The position numbers and the translations under genes were made by a program. The notes beneath the pieces were generated by a model. That model was not told the DNA's origin, did no database searches, and saw nothing but the letters and a program-made list of their open reading frames with translations. Of a DNA stretch of 64,000 nt, positions 41,461-44,563 are shown piece by piece. The stretch spans positions 1 through 64,000 of the forward strand of contig JAABSV010000007.1 of assembly GCA_011390165.1 (NCBI GenBank). Direction: 5' to 3'. Each line of letters begins with the position of its first letter. The stretch's first letter is position 1. Source of the stretch: Desulfobulbaceae bacterium (GTDB lineage: Bacteria > Desulfobacterota > Desulfobulbia > Desulfobulbales > Desulfocapsaceae).

Positions 41461-42027
41461 ATGGAAAAAATCAGGATAGACAACAATACTGCGTTTTTGA
41501 GCCCGATGCCGATGGTGCTGGTGGGGGCGGTGGTCGACGGCAAGGCCAATTTTCTTGCCATCGCCTGGGCCGCCCGGGTGAACATGCGGCCACCGATGTT
41601 TGCCGTGGCCCTCGGACCGCACCACACCAACAGGGGCATCGATGAGCACCGGGAATTCAGCATCAATATTCCGGATACTTCCCTGCTGGAAAAAACCGAT
41701 TACTGCGGTCTGGTCTCCGGCAGCAGAACCGACAAATCTGAGCTGTTCGAGCTCTTTTACGGATCTGTCGCCCATGCCCCCCTGATCACGGAATGTCCGG
41801 TCTCCATCTCCCTCACCCTCTATGATGCCCTGAAACTGCCCAGCAACACCCTCTACATCGGCGAAGTTCAGGAGGCCTACTCGGCCGAACCGTTCCTGAC
41901 CGATGGCAAACCGGATATCGGCAAGATCAGACCCTTCACGCTCTCGATGCCGGACAACCACTACTGGTCGGTGGGCGAAAAGGTCGGCAGAGCCTGGCGT
42001 GCCGGCAAGGCACCCCAGACCACATAG
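41461..42027 (+). CDS. Flavin reductase / flavoredoxin-like FMN-binding protein
   Basis: The protein is 188 aa with a GGAG ribosome site about 8 nt before the ATG. The flavin-reductase-like fold is visible in FLSPMPMVLVGAVVDGKANF, ARVNMRPPMFAVALGP, REFSINIPDTSLLEKTDYCG and LYIGEVQEAYSAEPFLTDG. Flavoredoxins of this type bind FMN and are common in sulfate reducers. It lies 58 bp before the radical SAM gene, so it could supply electrons to it, but this is only positional. Confidence 0.9.
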   Translation: MEKIRIDNNTAFLSPMPMVLVGAVVDGKANFLAIAWAARVNMRPPMFAVALGPHHTNRGIDEHREFSINIPDTSLLEKTDYCGLVSGSRTDKSELFELFYGSVAHAPLITECPVSISLTLYDALKLPSNTLYIGEVQEAYSAEPFLTDGKPDIGKIRPFTLSMPDNHYWSVGEKVGRAWRAGKAPQTT

Positions 42028-42084: not shown

Positions 42085-43914
42085 ATGGCCGACCAATCAC
42101 CATACCGGCAAACGGACCAGAATGACCCCGACCCCTTTGGTGTCGCGCTCGTCGCTGCCCCCTGGCCGCTCTTTCATCGCCCTTCCATCCAGTTGGCAGC
42201 TCTGCGCAGCTATCTGCTCAAGAAGGGTGAAGGGCGCTTCCAGGTTGACTGCCACCATCTCTATGTTGCAATCGCCGGAGTGATCGGCATCGATTTGTAT
42301 GGGCGCATCGCCCGATCCGGCTGGGCCGGTGAGGCACTGTTCGCTGCGCTGCTCTTTCCTGAAAAAAAAGCCGAGGCCGCCCGTCTGTTTCGCTCTGAAC
42401 TGCGCGGCCACGGCCGGGGTGGGGTACCGGATTTTTCTGCCCTCATGGCCGATATCCGCTCCTGCTGTGATGCCTGGGTAGCCGGGATTGATTGGCAACA
42501 CGTGGCACTGGCCGGATTTTCGCTCTGCTTCAACCAGTTGCTCGCCTCCCTCTATCTCGCTGGCTCGCTGAAAGAAAAGACAGCCAACCTGCCAATCGTT
42601 TTCGGTGGGACATCGTGCGCCGGCGCGGTGGGTCGGTCTTTAGTGGAGAGATTCGAGCAGATTGACTACCTGGTCGACGGCGAAGGCGAAGGCCCGTTGC
42701 TGGCCTTGTGTCAGCATCTCAAGGGGGGGCAGGGAGCGGTGCCCGGCCGGATCATCACCTCAACAGGCCGGGATGAGAACGGCAAAAGTCCTTACGCCAC
42801 ATCCCTGGACGATCTGCCGATTCCAGATTATCAGCCCTATTTCAAAGAGATAAAAAAAACGTTTGCCGATTTGCCATTCCAGCCGACCCTGCCGATAGAG
42901 TTTTCTCGGGGATGCAGTTGGCAACGCTGCACCTTTTGCAACCTCAATCTCCAGTGGCGCGGGTATCGCTGCAAACAGTCGGCGAGAATGCTCGCCGAGG
43001 TGCGGGAGTTGTCCGCCACAAACGACGCACTTCATTTCGCCTTTACCGACAACGTCCTGCCGGCGCCGGCAATGGATGAATTTTTTCGGGCCATGGCGGC
43101 AGCGCCAACCGATATGACATTTTTTGGCGAACTGCGGGCGACGACCTCTCTTGAGCGACTGACCGGATATCGGAACGGCGGGCTGCGCACGGTCCAGGTT
43201 GGCGTCGAATCGCTGTCAACATCGCTGCTCAGTCGCATGGGCAAGGGCACCACCGCCATGGACAACCTGGCAATGATGAAAAACTGCCTCGCTGCCGGCG
43301 TGGTGCTGATGGGCAATCTCATTACCGAATTCCCGGGAACGACTCCGGCGGAAATCTCTGAAACCATGGATGCTCTTGACTACGCACTGCCCTTTGCACC
43401 ACTCGATGCGGCATCTTTTTTTCTCGGCTACGGTGCGCCCATCTATCTCCACCCCCGGCAGTATGGGATTACCGCCATCCTCGCCCGCCCACAGTACAGG
43501 GCACTCTTTCCCCAGCACTGCCTTGGTACGATGCTTATCTCCGCATACCGTGGCGACCGGCAACGGCAGAAAAAACTCTGGCAACCGGTGCGGCGAAAGA
43601 TCACTGCCTGGCAAAAGTTTCATCGCCAACGGCGCGGCCGGAAAGCGCTGCCGCTCAACTACCGGGACGGCGGCTCCTTTCTTGTCATCAACCAGGAACT
43701 GCCCGGGCAGCCCTCGCTTCTCCACCGTTTACGCGGTGTATCGCGACAACTCTATCTCTATTGTGATCAGCCACAATCATTGGCGTCGATCGGCACAGCT
43801 TTCCCTCGGCTCAGTCCGCAAGCCATTGGGCAATTTGTCGAACAGCTCTGCCGCAAACGGCTGATGTTTCGCGAAGCGAACCGGGTTCTGGCGCTTGCCG
43901 TGCGAGCATCCTGA
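42085..43914 (+). CDS. B12-binding-type radical SAM protein resembling RiPP maturation protein 1
   Basis: The protein is 609 aa. The N-terminal 200 residues have the B12-binding or Rossmann-like pattern (LAGFSLCFNQLLASLYLAG, LPIVFGGTSCAG, IDYLVDGEGEGPLLAL). The radical SAM core starts at EFSRGCSWQRCTFCNLNLQWRGYRCK, listed here as Cys277, Cys282 and Cys285 (CX4CX2C). The phrase CTFCNLN followed by YRCK is like that of the bacteriocin-type RiPP radical SAM family, which normally has a longer first spacer. Downstream LHFAFTDNVLPAP and VQVGVESLSTSLLSRMGKG fit the same family. Codon use is less GC-biased than in the neighbours. No precursor peptide gene is seen nearby. Confidence 0.75.
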   Translation: MADQSPYRQTDQNDPDPFGVALVAAPWPLFHRPSIQLAALRSYLLKKGEGRFQVDCHHLYVAIAGVIGIDLYGRIARSGWAGEALFAALLFPEKKAEAARLFRSELRGHGRGGVPDFSALMADIRSCCDAWVAGIDWQHVALAGFSLCFNQLLASLYLAGSLKEKTANLPIVFGGTSCAGAVGRSLVERFEQIDYLVDGEGEGPLLALCQHLKGGQGAVPGRIITSTGRDENGKSPYATSLDDLPIPDYQPYFKEIKKTFADLPFQPTLPIEFSRGCSWQRCTFCNLNLQWRGYRCKQSARMLAEVRELSATNDALHFAFTDNVLPAPAMDEFFRAMAAAPTDMTFFGELRATTSLERLTGYRNGGLRTVQVGVESLSTSLLSRMGKGTTAMDNLAMMKNCLAAGVVLMGNLITEFPGTTPAEISETMDALDYALPFAPLDAASFFLGYGAPIYLHPRQYGITAILARPQYRALFPQHCLGTMLISAYRGDRQRQKKLWQPVRRKITAWQKFHRQRRGRKALPLNYRDGGSFLVINQELPGQPSLLHRLRGVSRQLYLYCDQPQSLASIGTAFPRLSPQAIGQFVEQLCRKRLMFREANRVLALAVRAS

Positions 43915-44060: not shown

Positions 44061-44303
44061 ATGAATATTCTTACCGTGACAGAAGCCAGAGCAAGACTGT
44101 ATACCCTTATAGACGAAACGGCAGCTTCTCATCAGCCCGTCATAATCACCGGCAAAAGAGGAAATGCCGTACTCGTCTCCGAGGAAGACTGGAATGCGAT
44201 ATCCGAAACACTCTACCTGCTTTCCGTACCGGGAATGCGGGAGTCAATCACTGAGGGAATGAAACAGGATGTATCGGAATGTTCACAGGAGCTCGATTGG
44301 TGA
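44061..44303 (+). CDS. yefM: YefM/Phd-family antitoxin
   Basis: The protein is 80 aa with a GGAGG ribosome site 7 nt before the ATG. MNILTVTEARARLYTLIDET is the Phd/YefM DNA-binding N-terminus, and VIITGKRGNAVLVSEEDWNAI is the conserved central strand. The C-terminal half (about residues 50-80, acidic) should wrap the toxin. It neutralises the YoeB-like toxin encoded downstream with a 4-nt overlap and should repress its own promoter. The lower GC and codon style compared with the housekeeping genes suggest transfer. Confidence 0.93.
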   Translation: MNILTVTEARARLYTLIDETAASHQPVIITGKRGNAVLVSEEDWNAISETLYLLSVPGMRESITEGMKQDVSECSQELDW

Positions 44304-44563
44304 ATTGGCACATCGTTTTCACAATACGAGCTCAGAAAGATGCAAAAAAGCTGGCAAACGCCGGATTGCAACCCAAAGGACAAAAGCTTCTTGAAATAAT
44401 CCGAGAAAACCCTCTCCAAAAGCCGCCACCCTACGAAAAATTGATTGGTGATCTTATCGGAACATATTCCCGCAGAATAAATATACGGCACCGGCTCATT
44501 TACCAGGTTTTTCTACAAGAACGCATCATTAAAATACTTCGATTGTGGACACACTACGACTAG
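44300..44563 (+). CDS. yoeB: YoeB/Txe-family mRNA-interferase toxin
   Basis: The GTG at 44300 overlaps the antitoxin stop (GTGA) and has AGGAG 8 nt upstream, so it is preferred over an ATG at 44279. The product is 87 aa, close to YoeB (84). The fold signature is WHIVFTIRAQKDAKKLANAG at the N-terminus, PPYEKLIGDLIGTYSRRINI in the middle and RHRLIYQVF then ILRLWTHYD at the end; the C-terminal His-Tyr pair (THYD) is the catalytic region. It cleaves ribosome-bound mRNA when free of YefM. Confidence 0.93.
   Translation: MNWHIVFTIRAQKDAKKLANAGLQPKGQKLLEIIRENPLQKPPPYEKLIGDLIGTYSRRINIRHRLIYQVFLQERIIKILRLWTHYD

Follow-up and report, generated by a model that had tools for sequence, protein, structure and literature searches.

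A stand-alone NLNLQW branch of the rSAM_ocin_1 radical-SAM family in sulfate-reducing bacteria and its possible role as a portable B12-dependent protein methylase

The 64,000-nucleotide stretch of Desulfobulbaceae DNA analyzed here (the window) carries a member of a stand-alone and uncharacterized branch within a known enzyme family. The gene lies at 42085–43914 on the forward strand, and its 609-residue product likely belongs to the B12-type radical-SAM class, with the three-cysteine motif required of radical-SAM enzymes present inside its radical-SAM domain. We infer cobalamin binding, methylation and peptide docking, as well as the identity and number of the substrates, and we give an even chance to the reading that the gene encodes a portable one-gene B12 methyltransferase whose target is a fixed protein or peptide encoded in trans.

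The product matches the rSAM_ocin_1 profile TIGR03975 (RiPP maturation radical SAM C-methyltransferase) at 347.6 bits against a cut-off of 281.85, over profile positions 1–606 of 606, and it shares the three-part layout of this family, in agreement with the bacteriocin-type RiPP radical-SAM layout proposed by the first-pass annotation. The N-terminal domain of cobalamin-binding type (approximately residues 18–235, 42136–42789) was delineated from the model alignment and from a Pfam B12-binding match of 16.4 bits (E 0.0083), which lies below the cut-off of 32.1. The radical-SAM core (approximately residues 265–450, 42877–43434) was delineated from the models and from a PF04055 match of 41.8 bits at residues 271–430. 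The CX4CX2C motif reported earlier is present in the translation as CSWQRCTFC (residues 277–285, 42913–42939), which provides C277, C282, and C285 and is invariant in a 40-row alignment. The branch signature NLNLQW follows at residues 286–291 (42940–42957), and an RRE-like domain is predicted at the C-terminal side (43645–43896); all of these features are on the forward strand. The genome assembly comprises 3.59 Mb in 108 contigs and is 90.94% complete. The gene is single-copy in its genome at this level of similarity, the next best match having 28% identity and 68.8 bits. Among the best 80 of 400 relatives in the contig scan, which carry Desulfobulbales-type, broader, or generic titles, the closest named one is Desulfofustis glycolicus DSM 9705 (77% identity). 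The names of these matches suggest Desulfobulbales as the order.

The third cysteine is followed by C[NS]LN.QW in 73 of the 98 tree rows, these 73 form one side of a branch with an SH-aLRT value of 99, and a clade of 21 RiPP-type rows stands beside them with a value of 100, both values coming from a quick support method without bootstrap. L282, which a contig end truncates to 455 residues, and L001, a duplicate of the window, were left out of the tree and the counts. In this phylogeny, a check proposed at first pass, the window enzyme lies inside the NLNLQW clade and groups with the copies of G035, G019, and G025. The mark of the stand-alone clade is CxFCNLNLQW, whereas the RiPP-type sequences mostly carry GLN or GLNG at the position of NLNLQW. 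All 42 tree rows of the order have an X4 spacer between cysteines one and two, as do all 80 named loci, every one of which also has NLN[LIVT]QW. Outside the order, the NLNLQW clade shows X4 in 14 rows and X9 to X17 in 16 rows, and the longest spacer seen, X19, belongs to L285 from G010, a genome of the same genus as that of the window. The RiPP-type rows have X7 (15 of 21), X4 (4 of 21), or X9 (2 of 21). The spacer of the window protein is thus shorter than the commonest RiPP-type one, as had been remarked, but it is normal for its own branch, fixed there within the order, and no peculiarity of this protein, an outcome that the first-pass annotation had listed as refuting its reading. Across the wider clade the spacing ranges from X4 to X19, and the loop is therefore free to vary. 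Because of this variation and because X4 also occurs among RiPP-type sequences, CX4C is uninformative on the substrate and was rejected as a functional signal.

The distribution of the family was surveyed in two samples. A match at E ≤ 1e-40 was found in 156 of 257 genomes of the class, at least G020 and G108 being of the other, CX7C type. Phylum-wide, 49 of 297 genomes match, 36 of them at 518 bits or more and 13 at 142–260 bits. Three of the 36 belong to the same order and 33 lie outside it; the loci cover all of the latter but G309 and G372, which share a genus with G272. Within the order, TIGR03975 scores are about 280–392 bits for the NLNLQW branch versus 530–644 for four CX7C genes.

The claim that no precursor lies near the gene holds across the branch. 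Except for the FmdB protein of the neighboring queA region, no conserved small ORF family stands beside the gene in 76 loci, and no NHLP or Nif11 leader was found near it in any of 63 genomes with the NLNLQW type only. The 17 genomes with other-type relatives served as a positive control, and 7 of them encode such a leader no more than about 2 kb from that gene (by NHLP in G108, G125, and G180; by Nif11 in G355, G370, G342, and G270), three of the 17 (G450, G343, and G491) being very distant relatives. G125 and G180 carry both enzyme types, and their leaders adjoin the CX7C gene only. At the genome level, 7 genomes out of 79 have NHLP leaders, every one of them belonging to the 17 that carry an other-type enzyme and none to the 62 with the NLNLQW type only, and TIGR03798 (Nif11) matches at E ≤ 1e-4 occur in 17 of 80 genomes, 8 of them over the cut-off. 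The leader search recommended earlier came out negative in the window genome itself, with no NHLP leader at E ≤ 1, no Pfam Nif11 match over the cut-off (best 13 bits), and no TIGR03798 match at E ≤ 1e-4. Eleven of the 63 NLNLQW-only genomes have a TIGR03798 match at E ≤ 1e-4 somewhere, over the cut-off in two (G434 and G027), and each match is on another contig or more than 1 megabase from the gene. Ten of these 11 genomes have in common a 73-residue Nif11-like family, and Nif11 proteins elsewhere in the genome were rejected as a general substrate, given that two sites of this family read as nitrogenase clusters and that the window genome has no match at E ≤ 1e-4. The 73-residue protein shows an invariant C-terminal tail, GNPxKRxIWW, in 12 of 13 loci (L335–L346) from Desulfobulbales genomes, and the two loci inspected, as read by eye, sit in nitrogenase clusters.

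These searches bear on the classical explanation, a RiPP maturase with an unlinked precursor gene at another place in the genome, from a leader family not yet known. Membership in TIGR03975, the predicted RRE-like nature of the C-terminal domain, and the position of the clade as sister to enzymes with linked precursors are what such a maturase would show. Against it stand the lack of leaders near the gene, the distance of the few Nif11 matches and their largely shared family, and a C-terminal domain too conserved for diversifying leaders, and we consider it unlikely. The first-pass observation is confirmed and its interpretation of the enzyme is partly supported: action on an unlinked peptide or another substrate stays the best reading of an rSAM_ocin_1 layout without a linked precursor. 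For the substrate, a protein or peptide encoded in trans is the best reading, with a probability of roughly one half.

The predicted structure relates the enzyme to solved B12 radical-SAM enzymes. The best structural neighbors of the full-length model (pLDDT 87.5) are OxsB (Z 19.3), TsrM (16.6), TokK (16.6), CysS (16.2), and MgmA (15.8), and the model aligns to all five from about residue 15 on. The cluster loop is weakly predicted, with residues 274–281 and 286–290 at pLDDT below 50. With OxsB, TsrM, TokK, and CysS the enzyme appears to share the fold of the first 500 residues or so, whereas identity is 12–19% and the C-terminal part and the substrates differ.

The C-terminal 94 residues, modeled alone, reach a pLDDT of 93.3, with strands and helices following one another as in an RRE (E9–13, E17–24, E27–35, H36–44, H51–57, and H63–75). 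Its two best neighbors are both the lasso-peptide RRE TbiB1 together with its leader, one at Z 8.7 (rmsd 2.4 over 75 residues) and the other at Z 8.5 (rmsd 2.2 over 73 residues). TigE (Z 7.9) and LynD (Z 7.0) are among the further neighbors, and all three RREs have the β3–α3 order in common with the model but only 12–14% identity. The alignments to these three RREs start at residue 7, those to most generic winged helices at about residue 25; generic winged helices such as YodB score close behind TbiB1, at up to Z 8.1. The match to RREs is weak, as Foldseek gave no match for the domain at E ≤ 0.001, and Pfam gave no family for the C-terminal segment at E ≤ 10. At matched core identity, the ratio of C-terminal-domain to core identity is 0.91/0.84/0.80 in the NLNLQW clade versus 0.55/0.60/0.56 in the RiPP type, in a test that ignores relatedness, pools RiPP-type paralogues, and has only 2–3 pairs in some RiPP-type bins (L002 and L304–L306 were left out). 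The NLNLQW enzymes conserve this domain far more strongly than their RiPP-type relatives do, which is unusual for the family and is as expected for a fixed ligand. The conserved marker residues include H547, R548, and L549 (β3), F584 (α3), and K591, and in the model H547, R548, F584, and K591 are placed near the α3/β3 cleft. One report (PMC12710340) gives a strict definition of the RRE and describes leaders as held in the α3/β3 cleft. In the predicted structure, conserved H547, R548, L549, and F584 would be compatible with leader-type binding in this cleft, though the conserved surface could instead reflect contact with the enzyme's own core.

The gene neighborhood was compared over 41 oriented loci, namely the window, 38 others of the NLNLQW branch, and two controls. 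An S1-domain protein lies near the gene in 29 of them, a LolA-like protein in 28, and MurI in 25, and none of the three is near it in the window locus or in the three nearest relatives, where the enzyme gene alone is conserved among all four. Within the order, the gene often follows lolA, and the two are at most 20 bp apart in 19 of 30 loci with lolA, the start being taken as the first start codon. On the same strand, cobD comes 3' of the gene in 12 of the 42 loci of the order, as does cobU in 7, and these loci span eight families; CobU matches its profile over the cut-off, and the one CobD of the order that was examined scores just below. In genomes that lack the gene, lolA stands beside cobU or cobD and S1 with the block complete in 9 of 12 loci, and the neighborhood is therefore not specific to the gene. 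For the S1 protein, 54 of 57 relatives gave a score of at least 274 bits, whether or not they have the gene. Outside the order, LolA is near the gene in 1 of 31 loci and the sole S1-type match (L266) is on the opposite strand. The neighbors that recur there are HtpX, FBPase, and a TPR-like protein, without a strict link to the gene. The TPR-like protein, directly 3' of the gene in 8 of the 31 loci, has a conserved FHEAMKLKEN-type stretch (L253, L256, L261, L263, L265, L273, L274, and L275). Of 79 genomes sorted, 46 have the enzyme gene and 13 of these encode the TPR-like protein, versus 4 of the 33 that lack the gene, and the protein was rejected as a partner on these counts; MurI–LolA–S1 and CobU/CobD were rejected because both blocks stand without the gene.

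Two further explanations concern the substrate. The first is a small-molecule substrate such as a corrinoid, a lipid, or an envelope precursor, with the C-terminal winged helix merely structural. The recurrent cobD and cobU neighbors had at first suggested a corrinoid role, and the structure titles of OxsB, TokK, CysS, and TsrM name small molecules or tryptophan as the substrates. However, the block is complete without the gene, and the nearest family members sit beside peptide precursors, and we regard a small molecule as quite unlikely. In the second, the substrate would be one of two proteins of the ancestral block, either the LolA-like one or the S1-domain one with its four repeats. The close spacing to lolA and the frequency of S1 near the gene would fit, whereas neither protein is common to the out-of-order loci and both are kept where the gene is gone, which makes this explanation improbable.

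In the window itself, a flavin-reductase-domain gene (41461–42027) lies 57 bases upstream of the enzyme gene, which accounts for the flavoredoxin-like gene reported before. No tblastn match to it was found in windows of about 20 kb around the gene in the three closest relatives, and its presence is therefore probably incidental. The first-pass annotation had remarked that no transporter is nearby. The eight window proteins scanned include no RiPP-type exporter or protease; CorA, encoded downstream of the enzyme gene, is a magnesium transporter. Just downstream, at 44061–44563, are genes for a YefM-like antitoxin and a YoeB/ParE-like toxin.

The ancestral site and the identities of the copies suggest loss and horizontal gain of the gene. 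In the window genome, G035, G019, and G025, lolA adjoins S1 with no gene between them and gaps of about 60–245 bases between the match ends. The window copy has 77% identity to the D. glycolicus copy versus 49–53% to those of six genus mates, the genus labels being assigned by a tool. Seven of nine marker genes (QueA, MurI, LolA, S1, RlmB, Gmk, and YicC) show the reverse pattern, with the genus mates closer, and the other two (MobA-like and FmdB) fail to separate the genus mates from D. glycolicus. The tetranucleotide profile of the window correlates with nine stretches of its own genome at a mean r of 0.81–0.90 and with G035 at 0.69–0.73. The composition thus fits its own genome and not G035, which argues against a mis-binned contig; the enzyme gene alone is too short for this test (r about 0.5 to all four genomes). 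In G010, the native site is empty and the X19 copy is nearest to out-of-order enzymes (46%), with which the tree also groups it, while its composition matches that genome (r 0.89). A mis-binned contig was rejected as the source of the odd identities for both the window and G010. The simplest reading of these sequence comparisons is that the native gene was lost and a foreign one gained at least twice in one genus, and the gene thus appears to move alone between sulfate-reducing bacteria. Since it travels alone, one conserved cell component is a likelier target than a natural product, and the absence of the gene from many relatives means that the modification cannot be essential. A similar picture would arise from a RiPP maturase that was transferred and whose precursor falls in no known leader family.

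The patchy loss could also point to a decaying gene without present function. G141 retains a C-terminal relic before cobU (L330:3391–3732, matching query residues 482–594), which is a case of loss under way. However, comparison of the window copy with the D. glycolicus copy gives a dN of 0.137, a dS of 0.873, and a dN/dS of about 0.16, and the gene is therefore under purifying selection. With the catalytic motif intact and the gene kept after transfer, decay is very improbable.

For the one-gene B12 methyltransferase, the following mechanism is proposed. As a cobalamin-dependent enzyme of the radical-SAM class, and most likely a C-methyltransferase working as a one-gene system, the protein would hold a [4Fe-4S] cluster on C277, C282, and C285 and cleave SAM to a 5'-deoxyadenosyl radical. 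This radical would abstract hydrogen from the substrate at an sp3 carbon, and the methyl group would come from methylcobalamin bound to the N-terminal domain. The C-terminal RRE-like domain would dock a peptide segment of the substrate, which may be a single conserved protein or peptide, chromosomally encoded elsewhere and common to many Desulfobacterota, so that the gene could be lost and regained alone. The transfer pattern therefore directs the search to a target common to donor and recipient.

A possible functional model is offered, by analogy, by dedicated methylases of one protein. MgmA (PMC11796369) and Mmp10 (PMC8828468) are described as B12 radical-SAM methylases of methyl-coenzyme M reductase; MgmA aligns at Z 15.8 and Mmp10 at Z 9.5 over the core only. 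They belong to another family, whereas the window-type enzyme comes from a bacterial phylum. A RiPP-maturase branch may have been recruited to physiology as a counterpart of these methylases, that is, as a portable single-gene B12 protein methylase of sulfate-reducing bacteria whose RRE-like domain recognizes one conserved housekeeping protein and whose gene is lost and then regained by horizontal transfer between lineages, a proposal whose probability we place somewhat below one half. Should the target be a housekeeping protein, bacteria would have a B12-radical methylation of protein that lies outside natural-product pathways. Desulfofustis or Desulforhopalus strains, which can be cultured, make the target question accessible to proteomics.

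The NCBIfam model puts the name of a RiPP maturase on the NLNLQW proteins, and the CxFCNLNLQW mark, the tree, and the leader control separate this stand-alone branch from real maturases. One survey dropped clusters found by the TIGR03975 rule as likely false positives after manual inspection (PMC9426513). No description of the NLNLQW branch was found in the literature searched, which covered mostly titles outside subscription journals. Relatives on mobile elements were also recorded. Six viral loci have 23–28% identity over part of the query and by identity fall outside the NLNLQW branch. The 83 plasmid records are all below 60% identity, and the three examined are CX7C with GLN: the Sinorhizobium meliloti relative has Nif11 precursors and an epimerase annotated alongside, the Streptomyces globosus relative has a pheganomycin-type precursor annotated alongside, and the stretch of the Paracoccus relative carries no annotation. 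The two annotated plasmid loci agree with the positive controls above. In G342 (L297) and G270 (L300), four RiPP-type rSAM_ocin_1 paralogues, some of them CX4C, stand in a row, and a Nif11 leader lies upstream of them at about 2 kb.
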